Below, piece after piece: positions 6,867 through 59,584 of a stretch of 64,000 nt of DNA. The notes under the pieces were generated by a model, which saw only the letters and a program-made list of their open reading frames with translations, was not told the origin of the DNA and did not search any database. The translations under genes were made by a program, and so were the position numbers. The number at the start of each line of letters is the position of its first letter. Positions within the stretch are counted from its first letter, which is position 1. Source of the DNA: a virus. The stretch is from the IMG/VR virus record IMGVR_UViG_3300042453_005404, positions 124,001 through 188,000 of that record. One strand, given 5' to 3'.

Positions 6867-6872
6867 AAAGCA

Positions 6873-7202: not shown

Positions 7203-7214
7203 ACTCAAAAACAT

Positions 7215-23079: not shown

Positions 23080-26000
23080 CTAATCGATTTTGTAAATCTT
23101 GTTTTGATAAGCAGAGAATCCAAAATCCGATTTATCAAAAAGTCCAACCACAACGTCGTTCTGAATTAGATTCACTTCACCTCTCCAACCCCAAATAAAA
23201 CAAGTAACCTCTTTATTCGCTTCAGCAAACAAACGAAGCTTCATATACGTCTTACCTGTCTTAGTCTTAGCCAATCCAGCAGAAGCTACAATAGCCCAGT
23301 AATTACCCTTCTCACTCCAGTTATCGATAGACTCAAAACCAAGCTCATCAAGCTTTACCCGAGCTTCCTTCGACAACAGAAGATCGAAATCAACTGAACC
23401 AGCTAGCTCCTTGGTAAACTCCATCTTCTCTGCCTTGGTCCAATCCTCCATACCTTGAACCTCTGCAATAGCAGCTTCAAGAGGTTGAGTGATATCGTTG
23501 TTCTTCTTGCGTGAAGTAATACGCTTAAACTCATCATATCGATCAACAAGCACAGCATGGACTTGCTTGTAGTTCTTGAACAACTTACCATCACCAACGA
23601 TATCCATCGAGCCCAACGCTTCAAGCTTCACAAGAGCTGATAGAGCACTCTTGTTGAACTTGCTGTGTCTCCATGAACCATCTTGGTTAATCAGCAAGTC
23701 CCGCACAGAGTTATATGGACGGAACTGTTGAATCTCGCTTACAGCAGTTTTGCCAACGTGCTTGAGCGAACTAAAGCTTGGCACAAGAGTTTTGTTGAAA
23801 GTAGGATGTGAGATAACCTCATATTCAGACACGTTAATGTCTGGCTTGGTCAACTCATATCCAAGAGCCTTGGCTTCTTTAATGGCAATAGCCTTTGGAT
23901 CTTCCTTGCCTGTTACCTTACCCTTAGAGATTGCACAGTAATCAATATACGTAGCAATCCATTCATCTGGATAATAGGTGAGGAACCAAGCACATTGCCA
24001 TGTTGTGATTGCATAGCATACAGCGTGTGATTTGTTGAAGCTATAAGCGACGAGTTTTTCCATTTCATCAAAGATATCGCCGCAATCTTCTGCGTCGATA
24101 TTGTTGGCCTTTGCGCAAGCATCAATAAAGCTCTGACGAAGCTTGTTACGTTCTGCTTGTGCCTTTTCCTTGTTGTTGATTTCTTTCTTGGTAAATGCCT
24201 TACGGATACCATCTGTATCTTCAAGGGGAACCCCAGCAAGCTTATGATAAATCATTTGAAGCTGCTCTTGGAACACAAGGAGTCCAGAGGTTTCAGCAAA
24301 TACTTCCTTGAGAAGTGGATGCTTGTATACAACTGAATCTGGGTTTGCACGGTTATTCAAGAAGCGTTGATCTACCTTAAGAGATAGAGGACCGGGACGA
24401 AAGATAGACGTAGCCACAGCAATATCTGTGATAGACTTTGGCTTCATTTGACGCATGAAGTTTTGAGTCTTGTCGTTGATGAACTGGAAAATACCAGTGT
24501 AGTTACCCTTCCAGAAAACGTTCTCATAAACCTTTGGATCAGTCAATGGGTTGTTGTCGGGATGTAGATTATCCCAGAACCATTGCTTGATTTGCTTGAA
24601 CGTTGGATGCTTGATGCCTTGCTTTTGCAAGATACGTCGCACACAGTTCTCAAACATACGAAGTGTACCAAGACCAAGAATATCGAACTTGAGTAGACCA
24701 AACTCTTCAAGGTGACGAAAGTTTACACCTTCTGGCCATGGAGTTTGTAGCTCGCCGCCAGCCTTGATAAGAGGCATACCTTCACGGCTGTTCTCGGTAA
24801 TAATCACTCCTCCAGCGTGACGAGACAAACCACGCATTTGCTTGAATAGCACCTTAATGGTTGTTTGGAACTCTGGATAAGTTTCCATGAGTTGTTGGAA
24901 AGTAGGAGAATCATTCATTGCGGCTTCAAAGGTCATAACCCATGTGCCACGATCAAAGCCTTCTACTTGCTTGGCAACATCAAGCACTTCCTTTTCAATC
25001 TTACCCGTTGCTGCGTTAATCTCTTCGAAGGGAAGATTGTGCAAGCGAGCAACATCCTTGATAAGAGAACGAAGTTGCAACTGAGCGAAGTTGGTTACAG
25101 GAATAACGTTTTCTGAACCAAAGAACTCGATAAGAAGTTTTACTGCACGATCCCGGTCAGAGAAGTCAGAGTCAATATCTGGGAATGATTTTTTAGACTT
25201 AACCAAAAATCTAGCGAACAGAAGACCGAAACGAATCGGATCAACTTGTGTTATGTTCAACACATATGACAGAAGAGATCCAGCAGCAGAACCTCTGCCG
25301 TTACCGATAAGCATTTCCTTACCAACAATGTCCATGATCTTGTGATATGTGAGGAAATACTTAGCAAAGCGAAGATGCTTAATAGTATCAAGCTCATTCT
25401 TAAGACGCTTGATATAAACATCATCATGATTACGTCCTACGTTACGTAGACCATTAATCGCAAGCTGCACAAGTTGCTTGAAGGCTACGTCATCCTCAGA
25501 CATGCCCGCAGAAGCCTCTAGGAGTTTATCTAGAGCATTCTTCTCGATTAGACGACCAATGCCGGGAAGCTTTACAGAACGGTCAATAAAAACGTCTCCA
25601 ATAAGATCGTGAGCGATATCGTGAGTACGTTCAATAGCATCGCAAATAAGTTGATCGTCGGTGTACAGTTCTGGGTATGCTGCCTTTTGCTCAAGGTAGG
25701 TATTCCAAACTTGTTCTGCGTTCTTTGGATAAAGCTCGCACTTAAGCTCTTCAACCTTTTGTGGTAGAGTGTTTGGATCAATGGTACCCTTGGTTTTCGA
25801 AGCCCAAGCCATAGCCTTGTAGACTTCACGTTCCTTCCAATGGTTAGGATTGGAATAGTGAGAGTCAACAGTAACAACAAGCTTAAGACCTGTTTCCTTG
25901 GCAAGCTCCATGAGATAGAAGTTAACAAGGTGTTGAGCCGTTAGACGGTTCATCTGGAGTTCAAGGTAGTAGTTCTCCGGTCCACCAAGAGCATCAACAA

Positions 26001-26763
26001 ACTTATTGGTGATTGACCTAAGTTCTGTCATAATCCTGTCATAGTTGTGACGGTTTACACCCCAATCCTTCCAATCAACGGTTTGATCTTGATTGTCGAA
26101 GATCGTGCGAGCAAGACGACCACCAATACATGCAGAAGAGGCAATAACGTTACCTTTGGCATGACGCTTGAGCATATCAAAGTCCATGCGAGGATATCGG
26201 TAAAAGCCATCGATATAACTCTCGGAAACCATTTGAAAGATGCTCTTCAGCCCAGCATTGTTCTTTGGTAGAACAACAAGATGGTTACGTTGAGCGATAG
26301 GATCAGAAAACTTATTGTTCTTGGTTTCTGCTTCAATCTCTACAACGGTGCCACCTTCCTCTTCTTCCGAGGTTTCCTTGCCATGCTTGGCATCCATATC
26401 AGCTTCAGTATCAGCAAGTTCATTGCCAATAGATTCATTGCTGGCAAGCGCCTTGGCCAACGCCTTGTTGGCTTTTTGCATCTTGACAAGCTTATTCCAT
26501 TCAACAAATGAATCAATGAAATAAGCTTCAACACCGGGAATGGCCTTGAACTTTACACCTTTGTCTTTTAGCTTCTTTGCATGGATTTGTTGGTGAGAGA
26601 TACCTGCCATGCTACCATGATCGGTTAGAGCAAGCCCGTCCATACCATTTGAAATGGTAAAATCGATATGTTCTTGAGGTAGACCAATCGCATCCCCCAC
26701 GCTCCCAACTGTTGAATGTGCGTGAAGACCTACGAAACGAGATGGTTTGATTTGTGTAGTCAT
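23080..26763 (-). CDS. dnaE: DNA polymerase III alpha subunit
   Basis: 1227 residues, close to bacterial DnaE length (about 1160). PHP domain: GLHAHST near residue 13, LALTDHGSMAG (about 50), PGVEAYF (about 75). A Glu-rich insertion (residues about 113-145) interrupts it. Palm: PDIDSDFSDRD near 530 gives the catalytic Asp set, and FNKSHAVCYA follows in the fingers. An OB-like stretch lies at the end (YWAIVASAGLAKTKTGKTYM). PHP metal ligands appear kept, so built-in exonuclease activity is possible. A gene-specific leaderless-type promoter precedes it. Its presence means the phage makes its own C-family replicase. Confidence 0.93.
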   Translation of the reverse strand: MTTQIKPSRFVGLHAHSTVGSVGDAIGLPQEHIDFTISNGMDGLALTDHGSMAGISHQQIHAKKLKDKGVKFKAIPGVEAYFIDSFVEWNKLVKMQKANKALAKALASNESIGNELADTEADMDAKHGKETSEEEEGGTVVEIEAETKNNKFSDPIAQRNHLVVLPKNNAGLKSIFQMVSESYIDGFYRYPRMDFDMLKRHAKGNVIASSACIGGRLARTIFDNQDQTVDWKDWGVNRHNYDRIMTELRSITNKFVDALGGPENYYLELQMNRLTAQHLVNFYLMELAKETGLKLVVTVDSHYSNPNHWKEREVYKAMAWASKTKGTIDPNTLPQKVEELKCELYPKNAEQVWNTYLEQKAAYPELYTDDQLICDAIERTHDIAHDLIGDVFIDRSVKLPGIGRLIEKNALDKLLEASAGMSEDDVAFKQLVQLAINGLRNVGRNHDDVYIKRLKNELDTIKHLRFAKYFLTYHKIMDIVGKEMLIGNGRGSAAGSLLSYVLNITQVDPIRFGLLFARFLVKSKKSFPDIDSDFSDRDRAVKLLIEFFGSENVIPVTNFAQLQLRSLIKDVARLHNLPFEEINAATGKIEKEVLDVAKQVEGFDRGTWVMTFEAAMNDSPTFQQLMETYPEFQTTIKVLFKQMRGLSRHAGGVIITENSREGMPLIKAGGELQTPWPEGVNFRHLEEFGLLKFDILGLGTLRMFENCVRRILQKQGIKHPTFKQIKQWFWDNLHPDNNPLTDPKVYENVFWKGNYTGIFQFINDKTQNFMRQMKPKSITDIAVATSIFRPGPLSLKVDQRFLNNRANPDSVVYKHPLLKEVFAETSGLLVFQEQLQMIYHKLAGVPLEDTDGIRKAFTKKEINNKEKAQAERNKLRQSFIDACAKANNIDAEDCGDIFDEMEKLVAYSFNKSHAVCYAITTWQCAWFLTYYPDEWIATYIDYCAISKGKVTGKEDPKAIAIKEAKALGYELTKPDINVSEYEVISHPTFNKTLVPSFSSLKHVGKTAVSEIQQFRPYNSVRDLLINQDGSWRHSKFNKSALSALVKLEALGSMDIVGDGKLFKNYKQVHAVLVDRYDEFKRITSRKKNNDITQPLEAAIAEVQGMEDWTKAEKMEFTKELAGSVDFDLLLSKEARVKLDELGFESIDNWSEKGNYWAIVASAGLAKTKTGKTYMKLRLFAEANKEVTCFIWGWRGEVNLIQNDVVVGLFDKSDFGFSAYQNKIYKID

Positions 26764-27540: not shown

Positions 27541-28230
27541 TTATTTTTTTATTTCTAAAATAGCAAGTAAAAGCTTGCTTTTTATTTCGTCTGGTTTGTT
27601 TGGGTCAGCGATGAAATAAATTCCTTTATCATATTTGACAGAGCCAATCGAAAATGTTTCTTTTTCGTGCTTAAAGTCTTCGTCAGCAGTTCCAACAAGT
27701 CGATTTGGATTTCCAAAAAAATTGTTGTTTTTTTTCAAGCTGGCTTTCAATATAACGTAAACTGGTTTACGTTCGCTTGATTCTGTTTTGATAATGGTAG
27801 GAAACATGGATGGGTCAGTGGTCCAACCTTGAATTTCAGAATTCATTGTTGGTTCAATTACTCCTGCTGGCAATTTGCCAGTTGGTTTGGATAAATCAAT
27901 GTTAAAAGTTGATTTTCCTGTTTCAGCATCTAAAAACAATAAACGATATACATTTATTCTGTCACCCTTAAAAGGATCAAGCATGGCACTATACATGTTT
28001 TTTTGTTTTAACGAAAACAAACTTGGAGCAATTTTGCTCAAGTCTGATTTGTCGTTAAAAGAAGCATAACGTGCCAAAGCTTCAAAAGCTTCTTCTTCTT
28101 CGAGTGTTGGTTCTTCTTTGTTGTTTTTCTTTATATCATTGCGTTGATAGTCAAACATATACTTGCCAAACAAAGCGTCTTTGCCTTGTTCTGGTTCTTC
28201 AAACAAAATAGAGCATAATGTTATTTTCAT
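27541..28230 (-). CDS. Putative R-S-E type ADP-ribosyltransferase, packaging-type N-terminus
   Basis: 229 residues, MKITLCSILFEEPEQ start (LFE-E). VYRLLFLD (about 94-101) supplies the R; IQGWTTDPSMFPTI (about 131-144) resembles the S-T-x motif that binds NAD; FKHEKETFSIG (about 189-199) gives a late E-x-E. This order is that of arginine-type mono-ADP-ribosyltransferases (VIP2, Alt). T4 Alt is packaged and modifies host RNA polymerase, so the combination with the N-terminal peptide is suggestive. Assignment is by motif only. Confidence 0.55.
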   Translation of the reverse strand: MKITLCSILFEEPEQGKDALFGKYMFDYQRNDIKKNNKEEPTLEEEEAFEALARYASFNDKSDLSKIAPSLFSLKQKNMYSAMLDPFKGDRINVYRLLFLDAETGKSTFNIDLSKPTGKLPAGVIEPTMNSEIQGWTTDPSMFPTIIKTESSERKPVYVILKASLKKNNNFFGNPNRLVGTADEDFKHEKETFSIGSVKYDKGIYFIADPNKPDEIKSKLLLAILEIKK

Positions 28231-33777: not shown

Positions 33778-34614
33778 TTAGTTTAGCTTGAGATATTCCC
33801 AAGCAGTAGCTGCACGTTTCATCAAGCGTTTTTTGTTTTCTGGTGTCAATCGTTTTTGAACTTGTGGTCTGAGATATATTGTTAAAAGCTTATCTACAAA
33901 CTCTTGTGGAGTTTCTCCAACGTTATCATTCCATTCTTCGGTAGTTTCTGTTTTTAAAAGATCGTTATATAGTTCGCTCATTGCTTGTTGGTAGTAAGCA
34001 TTGAGTTCCAAAGGATCATTAGCATACTTGTCACGATCTCTTACTTTTCCAGCTTCTTTTTCTGATATTTTTCGTTTTGCTCTAGCGACAAGATATTCTG
34101 GATTTATTCTTCTGAAGTCTAGGGTATGAGTAAACTCATGAACAAAAGAAGAGCGGTAGTTGGAGCTTTCAAGTAGATCAGCCAAGTTGTTAGCAAACCA
34201 TTTATTGTAGGCTTTTACAGGCTTATTAGCTGCTTGTGGAGCATCGATGTATAGTTTGATGCGTAGCTGAGTTATCTTGCCTGTATTTGGCTCTATATTC
34301 CGATCAGCACTTGCTTTGATTGTTGGTTTGACATTGTTAAGTTCATGGTCAAGAAACTCGATATACAAATCGGATATTTCTGGAATTTGTTGTTTTTTTG
34401 GCAAGTTTGTTTCCATATGGAAACCTATAAATCTTCCATCGTTATCTGTGTAAAACTTTTCCGCAAACTTGCTTGGATCTTTTTTCAGCTTACGAATAAA
34501 CGCTTCAATGTTTTCGAATGCTTCATTTGCGATATGGAGTTTATCCATATCTTCTTCTCTGGATTCTGCAAGCTTGAGAAAAAGCTTTGCTTCTAACAAG
34601 TCTTGCAGTTTCAT
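33778..34614 (-). CDS. HExxH metallopeptidase-like putative packaged protein
   Basis: 278 residues, MKLQDLLEAKL start (LLE-A). SSFVHEFTHTLDF (about 154-166) is a zincin motif with both His and the catalytic Glu. A downstream acidic helix (PLELNAYYQQAMSELY) could give the third ligand. No signal peptide. If packaged, it might cut host or virion proteins after entry. Ends 8 bases before the membrane peptide gene start. Confidence 0.65.
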   Translation of the reverse strand: MKLQDLLEAKLFLKLAESREEDMDKLHIANEAFENIEAFIRKLKKDPSKFAEKFYTDNDGRFIGFHMETNLPKKQQIPEISDLYIEFLDHELNNVKPTIKASADRNIEPNTGKITQLRIKLYIDAPQAANKPVKAYNKWFANNLADLLESSNYRSSFVHEFTHTLDFRRINPEYLVARAKRKISEKEAGKVRDRDKYANDPLELNAYYQQAMSELYNDLLKTETTEEWNDNVGETPQEFVDKLLTIYLRPQVQKRLTPENKKRLMKRAATAWEYLKLN

Positions 34615-34615
34615 T

Positions 34616-35845
34616 TCACTTCTTTTCGGACTTAGCTAGTTTAGCTAGTTTTTCGAACAGTTTAGTAACAATGATTATGTCGATGTGGCTGCGGTCATAG
34701 CTGTATGGAACGTAGCTTTGTTCTGGTTCAAGAGGCTTGTGTTTTTTTAGCTCACGATCTTCACGGGGGAAAGGATAAGCTTTCATGATTTGACCCATGC
34801 CATTGCCATATGTTTCATCTGGCATTTTCTTGTCAAGATCTTTTGGAACGTAGTCTTCTAACTCACGTTTGGTTTCTTTTTTTGCCATTGTTTTAGGTTC
34901 CTTTGCTTCTCCCAATGAATAACCGGGATTGCCTTTCTTATAGATATTCACGTTGCCGGGAACGTGCTTAACAGGATGAGCAACAACTCCTTGACTGCCA
35001 GCATGAATCGGTACATCATCATCTGAATCCAAATCTTTTACATAATCTTGTTGACCAAACTCTTTTTTAATCCAATCAACAGGTTTAACAAGGTGATTAA
35101 ACACTTCATCTCTATTGGTATGTCCTTTATCAACTTGTGTTGTTTCTTTCCAACGATTAAGTGTTTGATTACGTTTTTTTGTAAGGTTTAACTCATTACC
35201 TTCGGGTTCTGTTGGACTATACATGCTGGCTTGTACACCAATGTCTCCCGGTTCAAGTGTTAGCATTCCTTCGCCGGGAGTGTTAACAGGTCCATGTCCA
35301 AAGGGTATACCACGCTCGCCTTCTCTTGGGGAAGGAAGAAGATGTGGAATATTGTAACGTTCTTCTTCGGGTTCTTCTCGGTCTAAATCTTCATCTTCTG
35401 GGACATGTTCAACAGGATCAGACAAAGTATTCATCGCCGGGAATCCCGGCATGTCACGATAGAGAATCGCTGCCGCATCACGTTCGTTTACGAAGTCTTG
35501 ATATTCTGGGTTATAAAAGTACGAAGGTTCAAGGTCTTTTTCTCGATCCAAGATTTCGTCTCTAACAGTATCCTCTCCGGGCAATAAATGAGGACGGCTA
35601 TCGTAAACTTCAGAACTTTCAAGGGATTCATATTCGCTATCTTTTGGATCACGTTGAGCATCTATAGCAGGTCTAAAAGAAGGGTTTGGAGGTAAGTCTG
35701 CATCTGGGTCTTGTAATCCCGGCCATACTTGTGAGTTGGCTAGTTGATATCGATTACCGAAACCGTAAGGGCCACCTTGAAACGTTCCTGCTCCAGAAAA
35801 ATCTCCAGTGTTTTCATTTGCAAAAAGTATGTTTTTAAGCTTCAT
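34616..35845 (-). CDS. Acidic low-complexity putative packaged protein
   Basis: 409 residues, MKLKNILFANENTG start. Residues about 20-330 are disordered, rich in Asp, Glu, Pro and Gly, with loosely repeated PHLLPGED / PHLLPSPREG elements. The last 30 residues form a helix (IIIVTKLFEKLAKLAK). No enzyme motif. A scaffold-like or space-filling head protein fits. Stop is 1 base before the metallopeptidase start. Confidence 0.6.
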   Translation of the reverse strand: MKLKNILFANENTGDFSGAGTFQGGPYGFGNRYQLANSQVWPGLQDPDADLPPNPSFRPAIDAQRDPKDSEYESLESSEVYDSRPHLLPGEDTVRDEILDREKDLEPSYFYNPEYQDFVNERDAAAILYRDMPGFPAMNTLSDPVEHVPEDEDLDREEPEEERYNIPHLLPSPREGERGIPFGHGPVNTPGEGMLTLEPGDIGVQASMYSPTEPEGNELNLTKKRNQTLNRWKETTQVDKGHTNRDEVFNHLVKPVDWIKKEFGQQDYVKDLDSDDDVPIHAGSQGVVAHPVKHVPGNVNIYKKGNPGYSLGEAKEPKTMAKKETKRELEDYVPKDLDKKMPDETYGNGMGQIMKAYPFPREDRELKKHKPLEPEQSYVPYSYDRSHIDIIIVTKLFEKLAKLAKSEKK

Positions 35846-37998: not shown

Positions 37999-38433
37999 TT
38001 ACCTAGACTTTTTTCTTTCTTTGAATGAATGAGATGAAACCAAAGAAACCTCTTCAACTGGTTGAACAGGTTCCTCTGGAACTGAAACAACAGGTTCTTC
38101 AACCGTGAAGACTTCTTGTTGTTCAACAACTGGTTCTTCTGGGGGTGGTGACACAACCACCGGCTCCGAAATGATTGCAATCGTTTGAACTGCAACTTCG
38201 GGTGCTTCAACAACAACCACAGATGGCACAAAAACAGGCTTTAAAAGCTCGAAAACAAAGTTTTGGAACTCTGAGCTTATGTTCCATTTGTTTGAGCTTA
38301 TAAGGCTTTTAAAAGCTTCTGGAGATGTGATTTGATTTGCTGTCAACCATTTGTTTAATGGGTAACGTTTGCGAACCAGAAAGCTTTCTAAATCTGGAAG
38401 ATTATGGTTTTCAGTTATTTTGCCGCCGGGCAT
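37999..38433 (-). CDS. Pro/Val/Glu-rich hypothetical protein
   Basis: 144 residues from ATG 38433, with GAGGA about 9 bases upstream; the TTG at 38457 is less likely. Residues 1-60 are globular (LESFLVRKRYPLNKWL), residues 65-135 are a low-complexity run of V, P and E (EEPVVEQQEVFTVEEPVVSV). Starts inside the end of the small HTH-like gene. Unknown role in the sigma operon. Confidence 0.5.
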   Translation of the reverse strand: MPGGKITENHNLPDLESFLVRKRYPLNKWLTANQITSPEAFKSLISSNKWNISSEFQNFVFELLKPVFVPSVVVVEAPEVAVQTIAIISEPVVVSPPPEEPVVEQQEVFTVEEPVVSVPEEPVQPVEEVSLVSSHSFKERKKSR

Positions 38434-38696
38434 GATGTTGATTCCTCTGTTATGCAAAGAGGAAGAATATCTCCTAAAACTTCATGAATGTCTTGTCGCA
38501 TTACCAACGTATCACATTCTTCATCAGTAAGAGGCTTACCAAGTGATTCCGACATATTCATTATAAACTTACGCATCCCAGATAACAATATGTTTCTTGC
38601 CGTTGCATGATTCATTTTGTATCCTACTGCCGTCATCTTGGTTGCTATAGTGCGATAGTCTTCGCCTTCTTCGATAGTTATATACTTCTGATTCAT
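38415..38696 (-). CDS. Possible separate sigma region 4 / HTH protein
   Basis: 93 residues. YRTIATKMTAVGYKMNHATA, then RNILLSGMRKFI (about 14-45), has the layout of sigma region 4.2: helix, turn, recognition helix, then a final helix with K/R. It begins in an ATGA overlap at the exact point where the sigma factor upstream runs out in region 4. Two readings: a split sigma factor like SigO-RsoA, or a gene broken by a frameshift. I favour a genuine two-gene system because both have clean starts and stops. Confidence 0.5.
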   Translation of the reverse strand: MNQKYITIEEGEDYRTIATKMTAVGYKMNHATARNILLSGMRKFIMNMSESLGKPLTDEECDTLVMRQDIHEVLGDILPLCITEESTSCPAAK

Positions 38697-39421
38697 TTAT
38701 CACCTTCCTTTGACAAAATTTCTCCGCAATCAACTCCATAACGTTCCAACAATACACATTTTTCCCTTAAGTTCAATTTGAGAAAAGCTTGCTTTGCTGC
38801 CGTTAAAATACGCTTGTTGTCAACGCTTACCGACATGTCAACATTGTTGCTCGGTATAACGTCTTTCAGCGTTTTATCCATGCTGGAACTTAGTTGCTCG
38901 TCAATCGATTGACAAAACCATGATTTAGTCTTGACAGCAGCCGTGACCGAAGCAAACATCTTTTCTGTCATGCCAAGCTCATCAAGCATGTCTTTGCCAA
39001 TATCCTTAAACGCTGTTGAACGTTCTTTGGCAAGATTAAACAACTTGTTGCGTGCTGTGCGAATATGAGATGGAATATGCAGCATTGGCTCTTGATCTAA
39101 AAGATAAGAGTTTACACTCTGTCGAATCCACCATGTAGCATATGTGCTGAACTTAAATCCTAGTTCTGGTTTAAATCCATCAATCGCATCAAACAATCCA
39201 AGATGACCTTCTTGAAGCAAGTCACTACGTAGCTCTTTGTGCTTTTGCTTTTTGCTGTAAAACTTGTTGATAACAAACGTTACAAGTTTAGCATTTCGTT
39301 GCGCAAGATCGTTGCGTAGAGTTATGTCTGCTTTTACTATCTTTCCATTTTCATCCAAAATCTTGGTTGTTTGATACTTTTTGAATAGTTCTAGGTCTTC
39401 TTCGTTTGCTTTAGGTGTCAT
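38693..39421 (-). CDS. Sigma70-family factor ending within region 4
   Basis: 242 residues from ATG 39421 (ATGA overlap with the peptidase gene). Region 2 is clear: LRSDLLQEGHLGLFDAIDGF (about 64-83) and FSTYATWWIRQSVNSYL (about 91-107). Region 3 follows. LNLREKCVLLERYGVDCGEI (about 215-234) is region 4.1, but the protein stops eight residues later, before the helix-turn-helix that reads the -35. It should still bind core polymerase and a -10. The next gene may supply the rest. It is a candidate to direct late or middle transcription. Confidence 0.85.
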   Translation of the reverse strand: MTPKANEEDLELFKKYQTTKILDENGKIVKADITLRNDLAQRNAKLVTFVINKFYSKKQKHKELRSDLLQEGHLGLFDAIDGFKPELGFKFSTYATWWIRQSVNSYLLDQEPMLHIPSHIRTARNKLFNLAKERSTAFKDIGKDMLDELGMTEKMFASVTAAVKTKSWFCQSIDEQLSSSMDKTLKDVIPSNNVDMSVSVDNKRILTAAKQAFLKLNLREKCVLLERYGVDCGEILSKEGDK

Positions 39422-39846
39422 TGGTTTGTCCTTTTCTTTGATGCTATCGAATCCACATATGTTTTCAAACATTTTGATTTCAAAACTTGATAAGTCTTGT
39501 CGATTGGAATGTCAAGTCGCTCGGCAATATCTTCTCCTATGTGCCATGCCACAACTTCTTCTTCAAGAGTTAGCATTTTCTTTGAAAGGTTGCGAGGAAC
39601 ATGTTCGGCATTAAGACATGCAAACTTCTTTGCAAGTTTCGGGCTTTTTATAACCTTATGATGGCCCAGTTCGTGCAGCAAAATATATGCTTGGCTTTTT
39701 GGTGTGCGTCTTTTGTTGATTTCAATCGTTTGATTGTCAACATCGTATGCATCGTCACATCCACGCACAAACATAACGTTAACATTTTGGTTGCGTGAAT
39801 ATTCAACAAGATTTTGTAAATGGGTATGCCAGTTAGTATCACTCAT
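39418..39846 (-). CDS. ImmA/IrrE-like metallopeptidase
   Basis: 142 residues with LLHELGHHKVI (56-66) as the HExxH motif and EEEVVAWHIGEDIAERL (about 95-111) as the downstream acidic helix, as in ImmA/IrrE (DUF955). Such peptidases cleave repressors and similar regulators. It is the first gene of the sigma operon and overlaps the sigma gene by 4 bases, so a regulatory role on sigma or on a host repressor is likely. A TATAGT box 4 bases before ATG and TTGACT further up form a near-leaderless promoter with a 20-base spacer. Confidence 0.75.
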   Translation of the reverse strand: MSDTNWHTHLQNLVEYSRNQNVNVMFVRGCDDAYDVDNQTIEINKRRTPKSQAYILLHELGHHKVIKSPKLAKKFACLNAEHVPRNLSKKMLTLEEEVVAWHIGEDIAERLDIPIDKTYQVLKSKCLKTYVDSIASKKRTNQ

Positions 39847-41561: not shown

Positions 41562-42317
41562 TTAGTCTTTGAACTGAATTCCTCTGCTGGTGACCTCGTA
41601 GGGGAAATAAAGACCTCCGCTGCCAAAGCGATTCTTTTCAACTTGGGCGACTCTATCACCATATGTTTCGCTTCTACGGTCTGTGTCTAGGTGAAGTGAG
41701 ATATGCATATCAACAGCGTGTTTCACTTCTTGTTTACCTGCGAAGGTTCCATCTTTTGTTACTTGACCAATGATGATTGCATTGGTGTAGTTCTTCTTTG
41801 CCCATTCAGCAAGTCTCCAAGCTGATTGAATGGTTTGAGCTTGCTGGGAGTAAACCTTGCCTGTTTTTGAGTCAATCTCATTACACTCAACTGTTTGTAG
41901 TGAGTCAATAAACAAGAATAGTTGTTTGCCGGGGTTCTCTGCACGAATAGAGTCAGCATGTTTTAGGATATCATTTACATCATTATGATATGATGGAATA
42001 AAGCCATGTTTTAGATCCATACGTTTTGCTGTGCGACGTACTTGATAAATGCTTTCTTCACAAGTGTTATAAAGAGCAAGGTTTCCTGTTCTAGTGATAT
42101 TATCTGCTAGTTGAATAGCGAAGGTTGTTTTACCAGAGCCGGGAAGACCTGTTAGAATAGCTACAGTTGATGGAATCATTCCGTCACCGGCACAAAGAGC
42201 ATCAAAGTGTTCCCAGCCGGTTGATACTGCATTTTCTAGTTCTGTTGGAAGGCCAATGTCTAAGATGTTTGTTTTGGTTGTAACTTCTGGGTTACCTACA
42301 TTGATTTTATTTGCCAT
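41562..42317 (-). CDS. RadA/RecA-fold ATPase (second copy)
   Basis: 251 residues. Walker A GLPGSGKTT (57-65), Walker B LFLFIDSLQT, VKHAVDMHISLHLDTDRRSE and VEKNRFGSGG. Similar over its full length to the ATPase at 8534-9397 but without the Lys-rich tail. AGGAGAA ribosome site 7 bases before ATG, thus a conventional start. Likely a recombination or helicase-loading partner. Confidence 0.8.
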   Translation of the reverse strand: MANKINVGNPEVTTKTNILDIGLPTELENAVSTGWEHFDALCAGDGMIPSTVAILTGLPGSGKTTFAIQLADNITRTGNLALYNTCEESIYQVRRTAKRMDLKHGFIPSYHNDVNDILKHADSIRAENPGKQLFLFIDSLQTVECNEIDSKTGKVYSQQAQTIQSAWRLAEWAKKNYTNAIIIGQVTKDGTFAGKQEVKHAVDMHISLHLDTDRRSETYGDRVAQVEKNRFGSGGLYFPYEVTSRGIQFKD

Positions 42318-44860: not shown

Positions 44861-46384
44861 ATGAAAAAAAATAGAGCTCATGAGTTTCTCAATTATTTAC
44901 TTGAGACAGCAGCTAGCGATGAATACGAACAAACAGTTTTAGATGCGCTAAAAGCGGCTGGTATTCAAGGCAACATAAAAGCCGTCGCTGGATCGAGTGC
45001 AACCGAACCAGATTCAGATTTCTTTGTACCGGTAGGAAACAAAGGCCCACATATCATGGAAATCAAGATGGATTGGGGAGCTCAACTTGGAGGAGGCTCT
45101 TGGACCATTACTGAAAAAGAGGGTAAGATCAAGTATAAATGGACAGGAAAAATTAAAGCCATTGACATGGAAACCGATGAAGAACTCAGGTCTTCAACAG
45201 CTGCAATGAAAAGTGCGCTAACTAAATGGCTTGGGACAAACGGAGCATTGGCAGCATGGAGAAGACATGTTCAAAAGGTAAGATCTGGAATGAAAATAAC
45301 CGTTATAAAAGACGGTAAAAAATATCAGCTCAGAGAAACAGCCTCGGGACAACGTATAAACCAAGAAGGAAAAGGTTTGTCATGTTCAAAATTTGCTTGG
45401 GAACATGCAAAAAGAGCAGGTCTTTTGCAAAAGTTGCAAATAAACGTTAATTCTTCAGTAAAGTTCATGGAAAAACATTACGAATCCAAAGGTGCTCGTT
45501 ATATTCAACTTGGTGGTCCTAATGGTGGATTTTATCGTTTTGGTGACGATTCAACTGCCGCAAATTTTAAACAATATGTGCCAGATGTTCCTGAGTTTGG
45601 ACGTGGACCTACTTTTGCTCCAATTCCTTTCAAAATAGAAATGCGTGCAACTCGTGCCGGTGCGCAGGGAGAAAAGTGTGCTTTATCAATCCGAGCTCAA
45701 GGTAGACAAAAAATTAAAAAAGAAAGTTTTGAAAAATCCCCATATAGAATGGATGAAGTTGCTAGCATTCGAAAATTGATGACAACATATAATAACAATT
45801 TTTTAAGTGCTCAGGAGACTGCTACACCCACAAGCAGTACATCTAGAACTAGAACCGGTAAACGTAAAAGCTCCCGTGCTGCCAACGAAGCTCTGAACGA
45901 AGAACTTTCTTTGGGTCTTGCAGGAGGTGGTTCTGGCCGTAGAACAGATTTTGACTTAACAGGATTATCCAATATTGACGAGCCAACAATGTCATTTCGA
46001 AACTTGTATGATATGCCAGAAAATATTGCACCAGTTAAACCAGAAGACTTCTTTGAATTAGTAGAATCAAAAAATAATTTCGAGTATGATTTTGGTGGCT
46101 TTAAATCAACTACCGAAAGCCTAACAGACTATGATTATGATTTCGATATCGGTGACGAAGAAGAAGAACGAGATAACTTAATCAGCACACAAGAAGAAGA
46201 TCAGAGAAGCTGGAATATGAGTAACGGCGTTATTGGTATGAGCAACGAAAGGTTCGACGAACTTGTAAACGACGGTTATGAATTTCAAGAAATCACTGAT
46301 GATGAAAATAAAACTGAAGAGCCTAGAGAACTTGTTGCAACTGTCAAAGAATCAAAAGTAAGTCTCAAATCGATTTTGTTTTGA
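44861..46384 (+). CDS. PD-(D/E)xK-like nuclease, putative packaged effector
   Basis: 507 residues from ATG 44861 with AAGG 8 bases upstream. MKKNRAHEFLNYLLETAASD is a long-form shared N-terminus (LLE-T). Residues about 45-75 read ATEPDSDFFVPVGNKGPHIM then EIKMDWGAQLGGGSW: D53, E67 and K69 form the D-x(n)-E-x-K site of restriction-like nucleases. The middle third is basic; the last 120 residues are acidic and disordered and end in VSLKSILF, close to the shared SILF motif. Substrate could be host DNA. A CTATATAT box lies at 44826-44833. Confidence 0.65.
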   Translation: MKKNRAHEFLNYLLETAASDEYEQTVLDALKAAGIQGNIKAVAGSSATEPDSDFFVPVGNKGPHIMEIKMDWGAQLGGGSWTITEKEGKIKYKWTGKIKAIDMETDEELRSSTAAMKSALTKWLGTNGALAAWRRHVQKVRSGMKITVIKDGKKYQLRETASGQRINQEGKGLSCSKFAWEHAKRAGLLQKLQINVNSSVKFMEKHYESKGARYIQLGGPNGGFYRFGDDSTAANFKQYVPDVPEFGRGPTFAPIPFKIEMRATRAGAQGEKCALSIRAQGRQKIKKESFEKSPYRMDEVASIRKLMTTYNNNFLSAQETATPTSSTSRTRTGKRKSSRAANEALNEELSLGLAGGGSGRRTDFDLTGLSNIDEPTMSFRNLYDMPENIAPVKPEDFFELVESKNNFEYDFGGFKSTTESLTDYDYDFDIGDEEEERDNLISTQEEDQRSWNMSNGVIGMSNERFDELVNDGYEFQEITDDENKTEEPRELVATVKESKVSLKSILF

Positions 46385-47303
46385 TAAACTTTTTGAGCTT
46401 TCCAACGGCCAAGTTCTTCATCTTGGCTTCCACATCAATATCTACAACATCCCTTACAACCCCATCACGCTGACAATCTGGAATATAGTGAATATAATCA
46501 CTGTGCTTGCGTCTGTCTGTAAAGTTACCGTTCTCCAATCCCGGCGTAGTGTTAGACAAATGCTGCAAAGGTTTAACTCCAGTATTCTTCCAAGTGTATA
46601 CAGCCAAACCATATGCGTCATCTAGTGATAAGTTAGCGTCGTTAAACGTGTGATGGTGGCTATCCCATACAACAGGAACACCTGTAGCTGTATGCACTTG
46701 CAATAGATCTACAAGGTTGTATGCACTTTCATCGTTCTCAAACGTGAGTCGAGAACGCACGTTATCTGGTAGATTGCGAACAACTTGAATAAGTTGAGCC
46801 AACCGATCAGACTTGCCACCGTGAATATTGATGGCAGCATAAGGTGTAGCGGGTAGATGCATCTTGTCAAATACCCAAGCATGATGCGACAGTTCCTTGA
46901 TGGCATTGTTAACCGTTACAGGATTATCTGAGCTTAGTACAACAAACTGATCGGGATGTGTAGTTACACGAATCCCAGCGTCAGTAAAAGCCTTACCAAG
47001 CTTGGTAAGCAGCAAACTAACTTGCTCGTCATTGTCAATAATATCACGGTTGTATTCTGCAAGAGAAAACAAACCACTAGACATACGAAACAACTTGATG
47101 TTGTTTGCTACAAGTTTTGGAACAAGTTTGATAATCTCATTGATGTTGTTGAGATAAACTTCACGGATTGTAGACTTGGTATACAAACCTTTTTGAAAGC
47201 GACCTAGTTGCAAGGTACGCTCGTTGATAGAGTTTTCGTAGACTACAGAACCATCACGCTTGGTGCGTGGTTCCAACCATTGACAGCAAACACCTAGACT
47301 CAT
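46365..47303 (-). CDS. uvsE: UV damage endonuclease (UvsE/UvdE)
   Basis: 312 residues from ATG 47303, 6 bases after a -10 element; a TTG at 47318 is an alternative. LFRMSSGLFSLAEYN, VTTHPDQFVVLSS, INIHGGKSDR, LTFENDES, VVWDSHHHTFN and HSDYIHY are in the right order for the TIM-barrel UvdE family; these carry the metal-binding His, Glu and Asp. It nicks 5' to UV photoproducts and so repairs phage DNA without host excision repair. It suggests exposure to sunlight. Its end overlaps the end of the nuclease gene on the other strand by 20 bases. Confidence 0.92.
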   Translation of the reverse strand: MSLGVCCQWLEPRTKRDGSVVYENSINERTLQLGRFQKGLYTKSTIREVYLNNINEIIKLVPKLVANNIKLFRMSSGLFSLAEYNRDIIDNDEQVSLLLTKLGKAFTDAGIRVTTHPDQFVVLSSDNPVTVNNAIKELSHHAWVFDKMHLPATPYAAINIHGGKSDRLAQLIQVVRNLPDNVRSRLTFENDESAYNLVDLLQVHTATGVPVVWDSHHHTFNDANLSLDDAYGLAVYTWKNTGVKPLQHLSNTTPGLENGNFTDRRKHSDYIHYIPDCQRDGVVRDVVDIDVEAKMKNLAVGKLKKFIKTKSI

Positions 47304-47309
47304 ACCTTT

Positions 47310-47338
47310 ATCATACAATATGATAAAGATTATCTAAA
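47310..47338 (-). promoter_or_regulatory. Leaderless-type promoter of the UV endonuclease gene
   Basis: Minus strand: -35 TTTAGA (47338-47333), 17-bp spacer, -10 TATGAT (47315-47310), 6 bases (AAAGGT), ATG at 47303. Confidence 0.7.
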
Positions 47339-48042: not shown

Positions 48043-48549
48043 ATGAGATTAACATTAGGACAACTAAAAAGAATCATTAAAGAAGCGATAATAAAAGAAC
48101 AATGTGAAAAAATTGGTGGAACAGAGGTTTTGGTCTTTACGTATGATGGAAAAATTCGTGGAGTGTTTTCCAGCGAGGCCGAAGCTAAGACAGAGGTACA
48201 AAAGGTAAGATCGAGCCTTAAAGGTATAGATATGAAAAAAGGGAAGTTCCACAGGATGATTGTGGACGGCCCACAAAAAAAGATTGAGGACGGCCTGCCA
48301 CAAAATGATTCAAGTTTATGTGACAATGACGGCAAACAGGTTTGGGTTTTATCGGATAATAGTGGAAAAATTCATGGAGTGTTTTCCAGCATAGAGTACG
48401 CTATGAAAGAGGAAAAAGAGAAAGGTATAGAATTGCATATAGACAAATGGTCTGTGAACTACCCGCCACAAAAAAAGATTGATTCAAGTTTAATAAGTGG
48501 CATCGATCCCGACGCTTCCGATACCGCTCCTAGTAGATATAACTGGTGA
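48043..48549 (+). CDS. Duplicated-domain putative packaged protein
   Basis: 168 residues, MRLTLGQLKRIIKEAIIKEQ start, the long form of the shared peptide (IKE-A). Two related units follow: EVLVFTYDGKIRGVFSSEAE (about 28-47) and QVWVLSDNSGKIHGVFSSIE (about 100-119), each ended by a PQKKI block. The repeated GK-I-x-GVFSS is a strand-turn-strand. Function unknown. AAGGAG ribosome site; CTATATAT box at 47993-48000. Confidence 0.6.
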   Translation: MRLTLGQLKRIIKEAIIKEQCEKIGGTEVLVFTYDGKIRGVFSSEAEAKTEVQKVRSSLKGIDMKKGKFHRMIVDGPQKKIEDGLPQNDSSLCDNDGKQVWVLSDNSGKIHGVFSSIEYAMKEEKEKGIELHIDKWSVNYPPQKKIDSSLISGIDPDASDTAPSRYNW

Positions 48550-49680: not shown

Positions 49681-50220
49681 ATGCGTATTACTGTAAAACA
49701 ACTCAAACGTTTAATCAAAGAAGCTTTAAGAGAGTTACCACCAAAAATCGATCCAAGCACATACAAACCTAATAAATCAGAGCCGGTATGTGGATTGCTT
49801 GTGAATGGGGTATCTCGAAGCTCGTACACAACTCTAAAACAAGCAGAAGAAGTGGCAAAAGTTCTAATACAATCTGGTTACGATGTAGAGATTGTTGATT
49901 TTAAAGGACAGGGTACAGCGTCGGGTGGCTGGGAGGATTTTAGTGTTAGAGGAGCTGATGCGTACCTCACGAATCGAAGTGCAGAGGAGATAATGGAGAT
50001 CGTGGACGAGGAGGAGCGCATCGTCGGCCAGCCACGTCGTCGTGTACGAGCCGCCAGCACCCCCGCCCGCCCGCACCCCGACGACCTCGGTCCCTACCCC
50101 GGCGCTGGGCGGTACCGCAGCGCCGGGGAGATCTCCACGGGGTATATACCGGGGTACAACCCGCCGCCGCCGAGAAGGCAGATGGGTGTGAATGAAGGAC
50201 GATATCGCCGCAATAAATAA
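49681..50220 (+). CDS. Putative packaged protein with GC-rich basic tail
   Basis: 179 residues, MRITVKQLKRLIKEALRELP start (IKE-A). The first two thirds are ordinary AT-rich coding, with VCGLLVNGVSRSSYTTLKQA and GYDVEIVDFKG. From about 50000 to 50190 the DNA becomes strongly GC-rich (codons GCC, CGC, CCC, GAC), encoding QPRRRVRAASTPARPHPDD and a Pro/Arg tail. This segment has clearly different composition from the rest of the gene. Confidence 0.6.
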   Translation: MRITVKQLKRLIKEALRELPPKIDPSTYKPNKSEPVCGLLVNGVSRSSYTTLKQAEEVAKVLIQSGYDVEIVDFKGQGTASGGWEDFSVRGADAYLTNRSAEEIMEIVDEEERIVGQPRRRVRAASTPARPHPDDLGPYPGAGRYRSAGEISTGYIPGYNPPPPRRQMGVNEGRYRRNK

Positions 50221-50263: not shown

Positions 50264-50716
50264 ATGCGTATTACTGTAAAACAACTCAAACAACTTATTC
50301 GTGAAACTGTAGAAGATATCGATCCAATGGATTTAGAACGTCAAGCAGGAAATCTTCCATCAACAAAGGAAGATTTGTTTCAACTTTACAGCGATATGTA
50401 CAAAGAGATGTACGGCATTCGTCCACATTGGCTTAGAATGGATGAAGTGTCTGAAGATGAGCTGCGTGCGATGATCGAGCACTTAGAGCAACGTTACGAA
50501 AGAGAAATCGAAGCAAGAAAACGAGAAGCTGAAGAAGAAGAAAAATTCTATAAAAAACTTCGAATAGAACGTGAAAAAGCGGATAAGGAAAGAGCTGAAC
50601 TTGCTGCGATGGGTTATGAGGGCATGGAAGATCTAGAAAACCTCCCAAGCAGAAGTGGTATGGGTAGACGCCTTGCAGAGTCAATCAAAAAAGCTGTTCG
50701 TGATTCACTTAAATAA
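50264..50716 (+). CDS. Putative packaged coiled-coil protein
   Basis: 150 residues, MRITVKQLKQLIRETVEDID start (IRE-T); the first 20 residues and the ribosome region match the previous gene nearly base for base. Residues about 70-115 form a highly charged helix (EQRYEREIEARKREAEEEEK). End is basic (SIKKAVRDSLK). Ribosome site AAGGAG. No enzyme motif. Confidence 0.6.
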   Translation: MRITVKQLKQLIRETVEDIDPMDLERQAGNLPSTKEDLFQLYSDMYKEMYGIRPHWLRMDEVSEDELRAMIEHLEQRYEREIEARKREAEEEEKFYKKLRIEREKADKERAELAAMGYEGMEDLENLPSRSGMGRRLAESIKKAVRDSLK

Positions 50717-52075: not shown

Positions 52076-55000
52076 TCAGCAGTTCACACTACTTTCATTC
52101 CCGTTGTCATAAATTGTAATCATACTATTTGCCACCTCTTTTACTGCATCGATATGTGAGATGACAATCATACTTTTGAACCTAGTTTTGATACTTTGTA
52201 GTAACTCCAAAACTTTACCAACGTTATTTGCGTCAAGAACTCCCCAACCTTCATCGATGATAAAGATATCAGGCTTTGGAAGGCTTGAAAGGCTTATTAG
52301 AGCCACACGAATAGCTAGAGATGCAATCATCTTCTCCATGCCGCTAGCAAGCTCTATAACCCTTCTAGAGTCTTTATCTTCGATAAAGACATCCAGAGTA
52401 TTGCTTCCTACTTCTGTTTCTAGAAAGATACGGAAAGAAACAATACCAGCAAGAATGTTGTTTAGCTCGGCATTAATCTCTGGAAGTTTGTTCTTCAACA
52501 CATAAGCTGGGATACCGTTCTTGGAGAACGCTTGCACGATGGAATCATATACCTTTTGTTCTTCAATAATCTTTGCCGCTTCTTCTGCTTCTTTTGACAA
52601 TTGTTCAAGCTTGTTGGTATAACCTCCAAGTTTGACATAAAGCTGCTGAAGCTTGGTTTCCATGTCACGGATTGTGGTAGCAAGCACTCGTTCTTCTTCG
52701 ATACTTGAACCTAGATCTTCTTGCTTGTTTAGTTCCTCAACAAGAGCTACATGTTCTGTTTTAGCAGCTTCAAGTTCTTGCTGGAGAGAAGCTATGGTTT
52801 CAATACAACCTTTCATCAAGGTTTCGGAAAATGAAAGCTTTTGTTCGTTGCTTTCTAGTTCTTTCTCCCAGCGACGATATACTTTGATTTGCTCTTCAAT
52901 TTTTTCCTGTTGCAGAGCGTCAAAGTCTGCTTTCACAGTTTCATACGTTGCAAGAATATCTTCAACAAGCTTCTTTTGAGCTTCGTGGGTAGCCTTGTCT
53001 GCATGACTATCTTTAATGTAGTGACAAGTTGGGAAGCTATCACCACATGGTACCATATCAAGTTTCTTGATACTCTTTACTTGAACAGCTAGTTTTTGCT
53101 GTTCTTGTGATACTTCAACCTTAAGGTCGTTGTAGCTTTCACCGAGCTTCTTAAGCTTTCCAGCTTTCTCTTCAAGTTCCGCAAGCTGCATATTTGCTAG
53201 TTGCTGCTTGATTTCTTGTAGCTTTTCACGCAAGTTATTACAGCTGTCATTATGACCGTCAAGTTCTACTTGACGGTTTGCAAGCTTACCTTGAATGCGT
53301 TCGCACTTATTAGATGCTTCTGCAACCTTGCGACGAAGATCGGCTTGCTTGTCCGCACCATGACGTTGCAACCAACCACGAAGCTTTTCAAGCCTTTCTT
53401 TTTTGTTATCAACATCTTGTTTTGCTGCAAAGATATCTTGATTGCAAGAATCGATTGAAGCTTGGCATTCACTCTTTGCTTCGTTCCAGTTTACGTTACG
53501 GAACTTGCTACTAAGAGTGTTGAACTTTTGGAGTTCTTCATTTGCCATCTTGTAAAGCTTTTCAAAGATATCCAAGTCAAGGAATCGATTAAGGATAGCT
53601 TTGCGTTGTGTGGCACCCTCATCGATAAAGCGATTCATACCACCTTGATTTGAAAAGGCAGTAAGCAAGAAATCTTGTGATGTACCAATAAGCTTACGAA
53701 CAACTTTGTCGGTATCTGTTCTGGATTCACTGTTCTCGGAAACAAGTTCTACTTCTGTTCCATCACTTTCCAGACGAGACAAACAAAGCTTGGTTGCAGC
53801 CTTTTCATCATCATATCTACCACCACGCTTTGATGCCTTGGCAACAGAACGTTCAACAACATAATCGGTTCCAGATACGTTGATAGTTACTCTTGCGTAA
53901 CCTTCACGCTTATTCTTGTTGATGATATAAGAGCTCTTTACCGGTCCTCGGTCTGTTGTGTTGAATAGACCAAACATAAGAGAACCAACAATAGAACTCT
54001 TTCCTACCTTGTTTGGACCAAAGATACCTGTGATACCATTGAGATTAGAAAAATCAATGCGATTTCCTTCTCCGTAACGATATAGATTGGAAAACTCCAT
54101 GTCTTTAATAGACCACACAACATCTCTGGCAACATCATCTTCCAGTTGCCGCACCTTTTCCAGAGACTTCTGAACATATGCCTTTGCTTCATCTTTTTGC
54201 GTAGATGACAAAGCGATCTTGTAATCTTTCTCTACAAAGGAATCATAGAGCTCACAAAGTAGTTCTGGAGAGTTACGAAGGCTGGTGGCCTTTTGGTGCG
54301 TATCTTCGTCAGATCCACTCTCGCTAATGTTCTCGTTCTTCCCAGCCTTGAATACTACTTCACTGGCTTTGTGCTTGTTCTTTAGCTCGTCATACAGTTC
54401 TTTCATTTGAAGATGAAACACTGTTTGATCTGACACAATACGAACACGCTTATGCTGCAAGGTTTTACCTGCAACCTTGAGAGCTTCTGATACAGTAGAT
54501 GCTACATCACCTTTCCAATCCACTGTGATGAACTGGTAATCGTTTGCTACTTGATGAAAGGTTACATCCCAATCATCAGCAGAACGAATATCCCAAACGT
54601 GATAACCTTTAACAACATCTTCACCATAGTTCTGTTGAATAAGAGAACCGGGATAACCAATCCAAGGCTTCATTGGCAGGTCATCTTCGTCAATTTCAAT
54701 AATTTCATTTCCTTCGCACGTTCGCTCACTTAAAAATTGACTATGGTGAATATCTCCCAGAAGCGCAAAGTCAAAACGTTCAAACATAGAGATTTCAGCT
54801 TCTCCATGAGACATAACCCAATCCGAATCTGTTTTGCAGCCTCTTACAGAGCCGTGAAACATAGCAACGTTGATTAGGTCTTCGTCGGTTTGAACGTTAT
54901 TCCATCCAGCTTCATCAAAGCAAGACAACACGCATAGGTTGATGTTTGTGTTGGGAATAATCCAGTTGCCGCTTTTCTTGAACAAAACGATTCTTGGATT

Positions 55001-55312
55001 GTTGATAGCGGCAACAATAGGAGAAATGGTATCTTGACGATTATCGTTGGTTAGATTGCCGTCATGGTTTCCAAGAATAGAATACACAGGAGCAATAAGA
55101 GCAAGCTCGTTAAACATCCATGTGATTTTTTCAATCACTTCTGGTGTAATATTTTGAGTTTTAGTGTGAAAGATATCTCCCCCACAAAGAATATAGTCAG
55201 GCTTTACTTCTTCTCGCAGTTGACGAAAAAGTTCAGTAAAAACTTGTGTATATTCATCATGTCGAGTGATACCTCTCCAATGCACATCCGACACAAACGC
55301 TAACTTAGGCAT
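52076..55312 (-). CDS. Fused Mre11-Rad50 (SbcD-SbcC) protein
   Basis: 1078 residues. 1-260: Mre11-type phosphoesterase with FVSDVHW (6-12), GGDIFH (about 43-48), ILGNHD (about 77-82), MFHGSVRG and LLGDIHH. From about 400: Rad50-type ATPase with GPNKVGKSS (near 430), Q-loop, two long coiled-coil arms, and a hook region PCGDSFPTC (near 760) whose two Cys could bind zinc across a dimer. End: ELASGMEKMIASLAIR as ABC signature and IFIIDEGWGVLD (near 1015) as Walker B. Normally two proteins (T4 gp47 and gp46). Role in end processing and recombination-dependent replication. Confidence 0.93.
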   Translation of the reverse strand: MPKLAFVSDVHWRGITRHDEYTQVFTELFRQLREEVKPDYILCGGDIFHTKTQNITPEVIEKITWMFNELALIAPVYSILGNHDGNLTNDNRQDTISPIVAAINNPRIVLFKKSGNWIIPNTNINLCVLSCFDEAGWNNVQTDEDLINVAMFHGSVRGCKTDSDWVMSHGEAEISMFERFDFALLGDIHHSQFLSERTCEGNEIIEIDEDDLPMKPWIGYPGSLIQQNYGEDVVKGYHVWDIRSADDWDVTFHQVANDYQFITVDWKGDVASTVSEALKVAGKTLQHKRVRIVSDQTVFHLQMKELYDELKNKHKASEVVFKAGKNENISESGSDEDTHQKATSLRNSPELLCELYDSFVEKDYKIALSSTQKDEAKAYVQKSLEKVRQLEDDVARDVVWSIKDMEFSNLYRYGEGNRIDFSNLNGITGIFGPNKVGKSSIVGSLMFGLFNTTDRGPVKSSYIINKNKREGYARVTINVSGTDYVVERSVAKASKRGGRYDDEKAATKLCLSRLESDGTEVELVSENSESRTDTDKVVRKLIGTSQDFLLTAFSNQGGMNRFIDEGATQRKAILNRFLDLDIFEKLYKMANEELQKFNTLSSKFRNVNWNEAKSECQASIDSCNQDIFAAKQDVDNKKERLEKLRGWLQRHGADKQADLRRKVAEASNKCERIQGKLANRQVELDGHNDSCNNLREKLQEIKQQLANMQLAELEEKAGKLKKLGESYNDLKVEVSQEQQKLAVQVKSIKKLDMVPCGDSFPTCHYIKDSHADKATHEAQKKLVEDILATYETVKADFDALQQEKIEEQIKVYRRWEKELESNEQKLSFSETLMKGCIETIASLQQELEAAKTEHVALVEELNKQEDLGSSIEEERVLATTIRDMETKLQQLYVKLGGYTNKLEQLSKEAEEAAKIIEEQKVYDSIVQAFSKNGIPAYVLKNKLPEINAELNNILAGIVSFRIFLETEVGSNTLDVFIEDKDSRRVIELASGMEKMIASLAIRVALISLSSLPKPDIFIIDEGWGVLDANNVGKVLELLQSIKTRFKSMIVISHIDAVKEVANSMITIYDNGNESSVNC

Positions 55313-59057: not shown

Positions 59058-59584
59058 CAAGTTGGAAGGTTAATAGAAATCTTACGGATTGTTCCATCGG
59101 AGTCAACGAATTCACGAGTGTTTAGTTCTGGATCACTTAATGCATTTCTTAGACCATTTAATCCGTTAACATGTTGCAAGGGCATCATTGGTTTTGCATA
59201 ACCGTTTATTTGCGGCGCTGCAACTTCGTTCATTAATGCTGCTGGATCTAGTTTTCCATTGCTTGTTGTTGAAGCTACCGATTTTTGGCTATTATGATAC
59301 CATTGATTTACACGTTCGTTTGTAGTGTTGCAAAGATCGTCAACAAAAGCAGTTAATCTAGAAATCAAAACGTTTCTTATTTCGTTTAAGTCTCCATATA
59401 CCTCACCATCAACTGTTGCAAGATCTACAACACGTTGTTTGCCTTGCGGGCCTATCGCAACACGGTAAGAAACCTTTTCTCCGTCAATGGATCGGTGATG
59501 AATCTCTTCTTGTACAATTCCCGGCAAAACTGTTTGAGTTTTGTCGCTAAGAACGTAAATCACTTGTCCAATAGCAAAGCTCAT
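59057..59584 (-). CDS. Hypothetical virion or assembly protein
   Basis: 175 residues. First 60 residues beta-rich (FAIGQVIYVLSDKTQTVLPG, then YRVAIGPQGKQRVVDLATVD), then a helix with RNVLISRLTAFVDDLC, then a disordered Ser/Asn/Pro part. Overlaps the chaperonin start by one base and the upstream gene by 4. I recognise its general layout from T4-like jumbo phages but cannot name it. Confidence 0.6.
   Translation of the reverse strand: MSFAIGQVIYVLSDKTQTVLPGIVQEEIHHRSIDGEKVSYRVAIGPQGKQRVVDLATVDGEVYGDLNEIRNVLISRLTAFVDDLCNTTNERVNQWYHNSQKSVASTTSNGKLDPAALMNEVAAPQINGYAKPMMPLQHVNGLNGLRNALSDPELNTREFVDSDGTIRKISINLPT

Follow-up and report, generated by a model that had tools for sequence, protein, structure and literature searches.

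Two overlapping phage genes that probably encode one sigma factor divided inside region 4

Whether a phage sigma gene that stops partway through region 4 is complete, damaged, or one half of a factor whose missing part is encoded next door is the question raised by a locus in a 64,000-nucleotide stretch of DNA (the window, meaning the whole stretch analysed), which comes from a virus record of 260,466 bases belonging to a large uncultured phage. Three minus-strand genes, encoding a metallopeptidase, a sigma-70 protein (subunit A) and a 93-amino-acid protein (subunit B), are joined there by ATGA overlaps, with a conserved gene downstream. In window coordinates, the features are:

39418-39846, minus strand: metallopeptidase similar to M78 (ImmA/IrrE), with which the operon begins (HELGHH; ATGA overlap with subunit A)
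38693-39421, minus strand: subunit A, sigma-70 regions 2, 3 and 4.1, 242 amino acids, ending before region 4.2 (PF04542, PHROG 351, RpoD_Cterm)
38694-38711, minus strand: coupled start of subunit B, a Shine-Dalgarno-like GGAAGGTGAT within the end of subunit A followed by ATGA (ATGA in 8 of 8 close relatives)
38415-38696, minus strand: subunit B, putative region-4.2-like helix-turn-helix protein of 93 amino acids (genomic context, ATGA shared with subunit A, conserved motif)
38544-38657, minus strand: helix-turn-helix predicted in subunit B (helices 14-23 and 30-51), with the invariant MNH[AS][ST]ARN inside it (AF2 model, invariant columns)
37999-38433, minus strand: conserved next gene (MPGGKIT...FLVRKRYPLNKWL), unassigned, overlapping the end of subunit B (same place and motif in close relatives and in the contig L171)

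Subunit A matches Sigma70_r2 (PF04542) with an E value of 5e-12, above the cut-off, so the region 2 core-binding/-10 domain is present, and it also matches the sigma family PHROG 351 (E 4e-38). The NCBIfam model RpoD_Cterm aligns to it over model positions 2-193 of 238, leaving the final 45 positions, which correspond to region 4.2, missing, and a family profile search returned no region 4 domain match in this protein. The point at which this alignment ends bears out the original prediction, made from the letters of the DNA, that the gene carries regions 2 and 3 and the start of region 4 and then stops. An alternative in-frame ATG lies upstream of the subunit A start at 39472, and the ATG at 39421 shares its ATGA with the peptidase stop. 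In pairwise comparisons of close relatives, dN is far below dS for both subunits (for subunit B, dN of 0.08-0.29 against dS of 0.68-1.7, with dN/dS of about 0.11-0.27). Judged by these substitution patterns, subunit A is under purifying selection, a truncated gene and not a broken one.

The same split is seen in 72 distinct A/B pairs, which form 31 clusters at 70% and 16 clusters at 50% identity of subunit B; the order is always A then B, and the spacing between the two ranges from -25 to 998 nt. A profile of subunit B detects its relatives directly after truncated sigmas, even where sigma identity has fallen to about 30%. The original prediction had the second gene beginning within the ATGA of the sigma gene, and had called for a sequencing frameshift to be excluded and for related phages to be searched for the same split. 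The truncation and the ATGA junction are kept in all eight close relatives (among L002-L014 and L170), and a frameshift or assembly error in the window is ruled out because the split and its junction recur in relatives under purifying selection. Nothing beyond the split itself speaks for an error or for a decaying sigma gene, an explanation whose probability the 72 pairs, with selection acting on both parts, reduce to a negligible level. A programmed frameshift joining A and B was also considered and rejected: the ATGA lacks good slippery pairing, and the halves are 2-998 nt apart in other lineages.

Subunit B has its ATG in the same ATGA as the subunit A stop, preceded by a good Shine-Dalgarno sequence, GGAAGGTGATAAATGA, and its family carries the conserved motif YIT..EG.D[YF]R.IA..MT..GYKMNHATARN. 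Family, PDB-sequence and profile-profile searches with the protein on its own yielded no significant match to region 4.2. The best E value of Sigma70_r4_2 against the subunit B family is 0.044, seen in 1 of 15 members, and hhalign of subunit B against region 4.2 gives an E value of 0.36; two mixed alignments (A4 and A5), in which sigma tails had been placed over subunit B, were discarded. A tblastn search of INPHARED (50,697 phage records) with four B queries yielded no convincing relative, and the three weak matches in one such search (E 1-8) were all to phage RNA polymerase genes. The AF2 model of subunit B comprises four helices, including the helix-turn-helix pair 14-23 and 30-51, with a pLDDT of 84 overall and about 92-95 in the pair; a PDB fold search with this isolated model gave no match. 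The proposal that the second gene encodes a helix-turn-helix like that of region 4.2 therefore stands in part: the helix-turn-helix appears in the AF2 model, but subunit B alone has no significant match to 4.2, and the case for calling it region 4.2 is built on context, a natural fusion and a joint structure model.

Regarding context, a scan of viral contigs with subunit B alone produced 224 relatives, 80 of which were retained. A truncated sigma is encoded directly upstream on the same strand at 79 of these 80 loci, the exception being a 39-kb fragment (L153). Conversely, subunit B is absent beside 39 of 39 distinct intact phage sigmas, gathered with a query chosen without regard to B (a fortieth, cut by a contig end, was left out of the count), and it is also absent beside the canonical-4.2 sigmas of another sigma comparison set. 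Searches of whole records recovered one subunit B copy in each of 11 split-sigma records and in the L153 fragment, and none in three whole intact-sigma records. Sigmas truncated after 4.1 have subunit B beside them, with the lone exception of the 167-kb record L048, which encodes such a sigma and has no recognisable subunit B anywhere in the record. In these surveys intact region 4.2 and subunit B exclude each other, and this exclusion, together with the adjacency, displays what characterizes a two-part sigma, namely functions divided between two co-occurring proteins. No cultured phage with this split was found.

These surveys also bear on the reading that subunit B is a separate regulator, either an anti-sigma or a DNA-binding repressor, encoded in the same operon as a truncated A that is already a complete late sigma. 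Sigma and anti-sigma genes are often neighbours, and in other lineages A and B are separated by other genes, including GIY-YIG ORFs, as that reading would allow. However, the mutual exclusion of B and intact 4.2 counts against it, because an anti-sigma should turn up next to intact sigmas as well, and the existence of a natural fusion argues in the same direction; a regulator of this kind is accordingly judged very unlikely.

The fusion is carried by L171, a phage-like contig of 158 kb that had been placed in the bin of a Flavobacteriales genome, where A and B lie in one 357-amino-acid ORF that is matched by the sigma profile (E 1e-49) and by the subunit B profile (E 1e-23), in the same gene order as in the window (peptidase, sigma, conserved next gene). 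In a tblastn comparison with intact phage sigmas, the L171 protein aligns up to residue 287, 25 residues inside its B part, and the sigma70-ECF model reaches residue 282, 20 residues inside the B part; no other direct sequence alignment of B with canonical 4.2 was obtained. A relative with a single intact gene had been named at the outset as a case that would speak against a split factor. Exactly one such relative, L171, came to light, and it is taken as supporting the two-part idea because it shows both ORFs as parts of one sigma. This fusion is known from a single metagenomic contig, in which an A-run lies at the join (near L171 positions 4990-5000) and an error of one base there could bring the frames together, and no further fused relatives were found in viral contigs.

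In a tree of regions 2-4.1 from which long-branch rows had been removed, the split and fused sequences are set apart from 33 intact ones by one branch (SH-aLRT 83); a fuller tree that includes the long-branch rows requires two changes. Both trees place L171 with the window subclade (98-100). The simplest reading of these trees, not a proven one, would be a split of single origin with later rejoining in L171.

Structure prediction of the 4.1 plus B region of L171 with AF2 gave a model with a pLDDT of 79.5 and a pTM of 0.70 (the other four models scored 66-72, and the 4.1 part had no aligned homologues). All seven PDB matches listed for this joint model with a probability >0.5 are sigma region-4 domains or sigma factors (Foldseek E 0.7-3.2), among them a SigA region 4-flap chimera, SigL region 4, AlgU, and sigma-E region 4 on -35 DNA, with a target TM of 0.76. 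Such matches lend specific but not conclusive support to a predicted region-4 fold that is completed by the second chain.

Taken together, the exclusion with intact sigmas, the strict adjacency, the natural fusion and the region-4-like joint model back the original proposal of a two-part sigma, and it is probable that the two genes constitute one sigma factor for host RNA polymerase with a region-4 module assembled from two chains. The search for domains in the whole record found one sigma region 2 domain and, in a record that may be incomplete, no second sigma, no RpoB (RNA polymerase beta) domain and no member of the gp33 family; with no beta domain of its own, the phage presumably uses the host core polymerase. 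Subunit A (regions 2-3-4.1) would bind that polymerase and the -10 region, while subunit B would provide the missing region 4.2 by docking onto the 4.1 helices of subunit A. The resulting two-chain module would hold the tip of the beta flap and would probably touch upstream DNA, overlapping translation may supply A and B in matched amounts, and both would be required for the phage to redirect host RNA polymerase to its own promoters. The physical assembly of A with B, the contact with -35 DNA and the promoter class are elements of this scheme that we infer.

The main rival to a region 4 shared between two chains is an arrangement like that of gp55/gp33 in phage T4, in which A alone would read -10-only promoters and B would be a flap-binding coactivator that does not read DNA and is not a true 4.2. 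In T4, the two proteins are well established as a split sigma (PMC2988020), the terminase of the window phage is T4-type, and subunit B lacks a direct sequence match to 4.2. The promoter evidence also fits a coactivator of this kind. In a motif search of the regions upstream of 134 genes, CTATATAT is enriched just ahead of genes, with 12 of its 19 genome matches being intergenic with a gene start downstream (one example lies in the upstream region of window 39956 on the plus strand); it is a candidate phage promoter box, -10-like in its sequence, and the search found no -35 partner or element for it. The T4 late promoter TATAAATA occurs once, against 2.7 copies expected. On the other hand, subunit A retains region 4.1, which to our knowledge T4 gp55 does not have. 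The motif around the recognition helix of B is invariant, and A and B share one operon and are naturally fused in L171. Furthermore, gp33 (PF16805) is absent from the window genome and from three other split genomes, while the control cyanophage S-CREM2 gives a match with an E value of 1.8e-28, and the joint model resembles sigma region 4, to which gp33 is reported to be structurally unrelated (PMC7892883). In view of the retained 4.1, the fusion, the fold matches and the lack of the gp33 family, a gp33-like coactivator is considered unlikely.

A further part of the original prediction concerned the peptidase. An HELGHH peptidase ORF is indeed present upstream in the same operon, with the ATGA overlap noted above, and its residues H58, E59, H62, E96 and E97 (HExxH plus downstream Glu) are invariant in 12 aligned sequences; PF06114 (M78) scores 18.8 bits against the window protein (cut-off 22), and 8 of the 12 aligned members match it, with a best E value of 2.6e-6. 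It had been suggested that this enzyme controls the two-part sigma, an addition to the favoured explanation in which the peptidase would cleave a subunit or a host inhibitor and thereby switch the sigma on. The shared operon, the ATGA coupling, the conserved catalytic ligands and the adjacency in most members of the window subclade would agree with such control. However, the peptidase adjoins the pair only in that subclade, lies about 3 kb downstream of it in L157 and L169, evolves faster than the A/B pair and has no known cleavage target, and no homologue is present in six whole split-sigma records (L024, L152, L033, L015, L098 and L164, of 340, 320, 241, 235, 187 and 145 kb). This absence rules out the peptidase as an integral part of the system in general; the suggestion of protease control is not upheld and is given a low probability, the enzyme being accessory at most, with a role that it may have within the window subclade.

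Other genes are found between the halves in other lineages. GIY-YIG endonuclease-like ORFs occupy this position in L016 (7090-7716) and L018 (about 6650-7370, where the insertion seems to lie close to the start of subunit B), which indicates that strict abutment of A and B is not essential. A sister lineage encodes, between A and B, a small protein that has a single predicted membrane span and the tail motif DLNxRLxxLQxxxFSxxM (L..RL..LQ...FS), and 57 of 57 matches of this family sit between sigma halves (some loci overlap). Examples are:

L121, 3721-3963: membrane-span protein between the halves
L111, 3738-3959: membrane-span protein between the halves
L145, 3737-3958: membrane-span protein between the halves

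A broader scenario, in which a sigma of large uncultured phages, probably split once and with a two-chain region 4, persists as a three-gene and possibly membrane-gated form in one branch and with its halves joined (again) in another, is offered tentatively, as a possibility that falls somewhat short of an even chance. If true, the branch with the membrane protein and the joined branch would be natural experiments on why a sigma is kept in two parts.

Compared with known systems, the intact sigma-70 factors of Vibrio phage 2.275.O and Synechococcus phage S-CREM2 are homologous to the split form over regions 2-4.1 but have 4.2 in the same ORF and no adjacent subunit B. Phage SPO1 has a late pair made up of gp34 and gp33. 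A sigma-like protein and a small partner jointly drive late transcription there (PMC3601020). T4 gp55/gp33 likewise form a phage split sigma on host polymerase, with a small second protein at the sigma4 position (PMC2988020), but T4 gp33 is unrelated to sigma4 in both sequence and structure and reads no DNA, its gene lies far from that of gp55, and a fused T4 form is not known, whereas the present genes overlap, A keeps 4.1, one natural fusion exists and the gp33 family is not matched. In Bacillus SigO-RsoA, the sigma domains are shared out between two proteins, and promoter activity requires both (PMC8103513, PMC10028694); in terms of domain layout, the cut there falls between sigma2 (RsoA) and sigma4 (SigO) and leaves region 4 whole, whereas in the phage-borne pair region 4 itself is divided, with the break between 4.1 and 4.2. 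None of the known two-part sigmas in the literature compared is cut inside region 4, and the available part of a jumbo-phage survey, which describes phage sigmas of both minimal and complete form as well as orthologues of gp33, does not mention a split after 4.1. Among two-part sigmas, of which few are known, the division inside region 4 thus looks like a variant that is widespread and has not been described before. A review of T4 late transcription asked why its two sigma-like parts remain separate proteins and why a fused form is not seen in nature (PMC2988020); a recognisable sigma that is split in dozens of phages, stable over great divergence and fused once makes this question directly testable. 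Two small sigma proteins that depend on each other would, in addition, form a natural AND gate, and the gene for subunit B is a marker of a large uncultured phage lineage.

Several other genes in the window deserve mention. More than 15 otherwise different proteins share the N-termini MKLYxxLFE or MRITVKQLKxLIKE, which resemble the T4 capsid-targeting leaders cut by prohead protease and possibly mark a large set of head-packaged proteins. Examples of these ORFs, in window coordinates, are:

9905-10576, 10715-11353, 11397-12056, 13961-14572, 27541-28230: shared-N-terminus ORFs
33778-34614, 34616-35845, 48043-48549, 49681-50220, 50264-50716: further shared-N-terminus ORFs

A DnaE-type DNA polymerase III alpha with a PHP domain is encoded at 23080-26763 (minus strand); no beta-clamp domain was found in the window record, and PF02916 (the T4-type clamp) matches neither the window genome nor the control. 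A 1078-amino-acid ORF at 52076-55312 (minus strand) fuses an Mre11/SbcD-like phosphoesterase to a Rad50/SbcC-like ATPase (Metallophos, SMC_N, SbcC_Walker_B), functions that T4 encodes in two genes. The phage also encodes a GroEL-type chaperonin at 57315-59060 (minus strand; Cpn60, E 1.7e-61), a UvdE UV endonuclease at 46365-47318 (minus strand; E 2.9e-55), with a similar gene near the sigma pair in L121, and two KaiC/RecA-like ATPase paralogues at 8534-9397 (plus strand) and 41562-42317 (minus strand).
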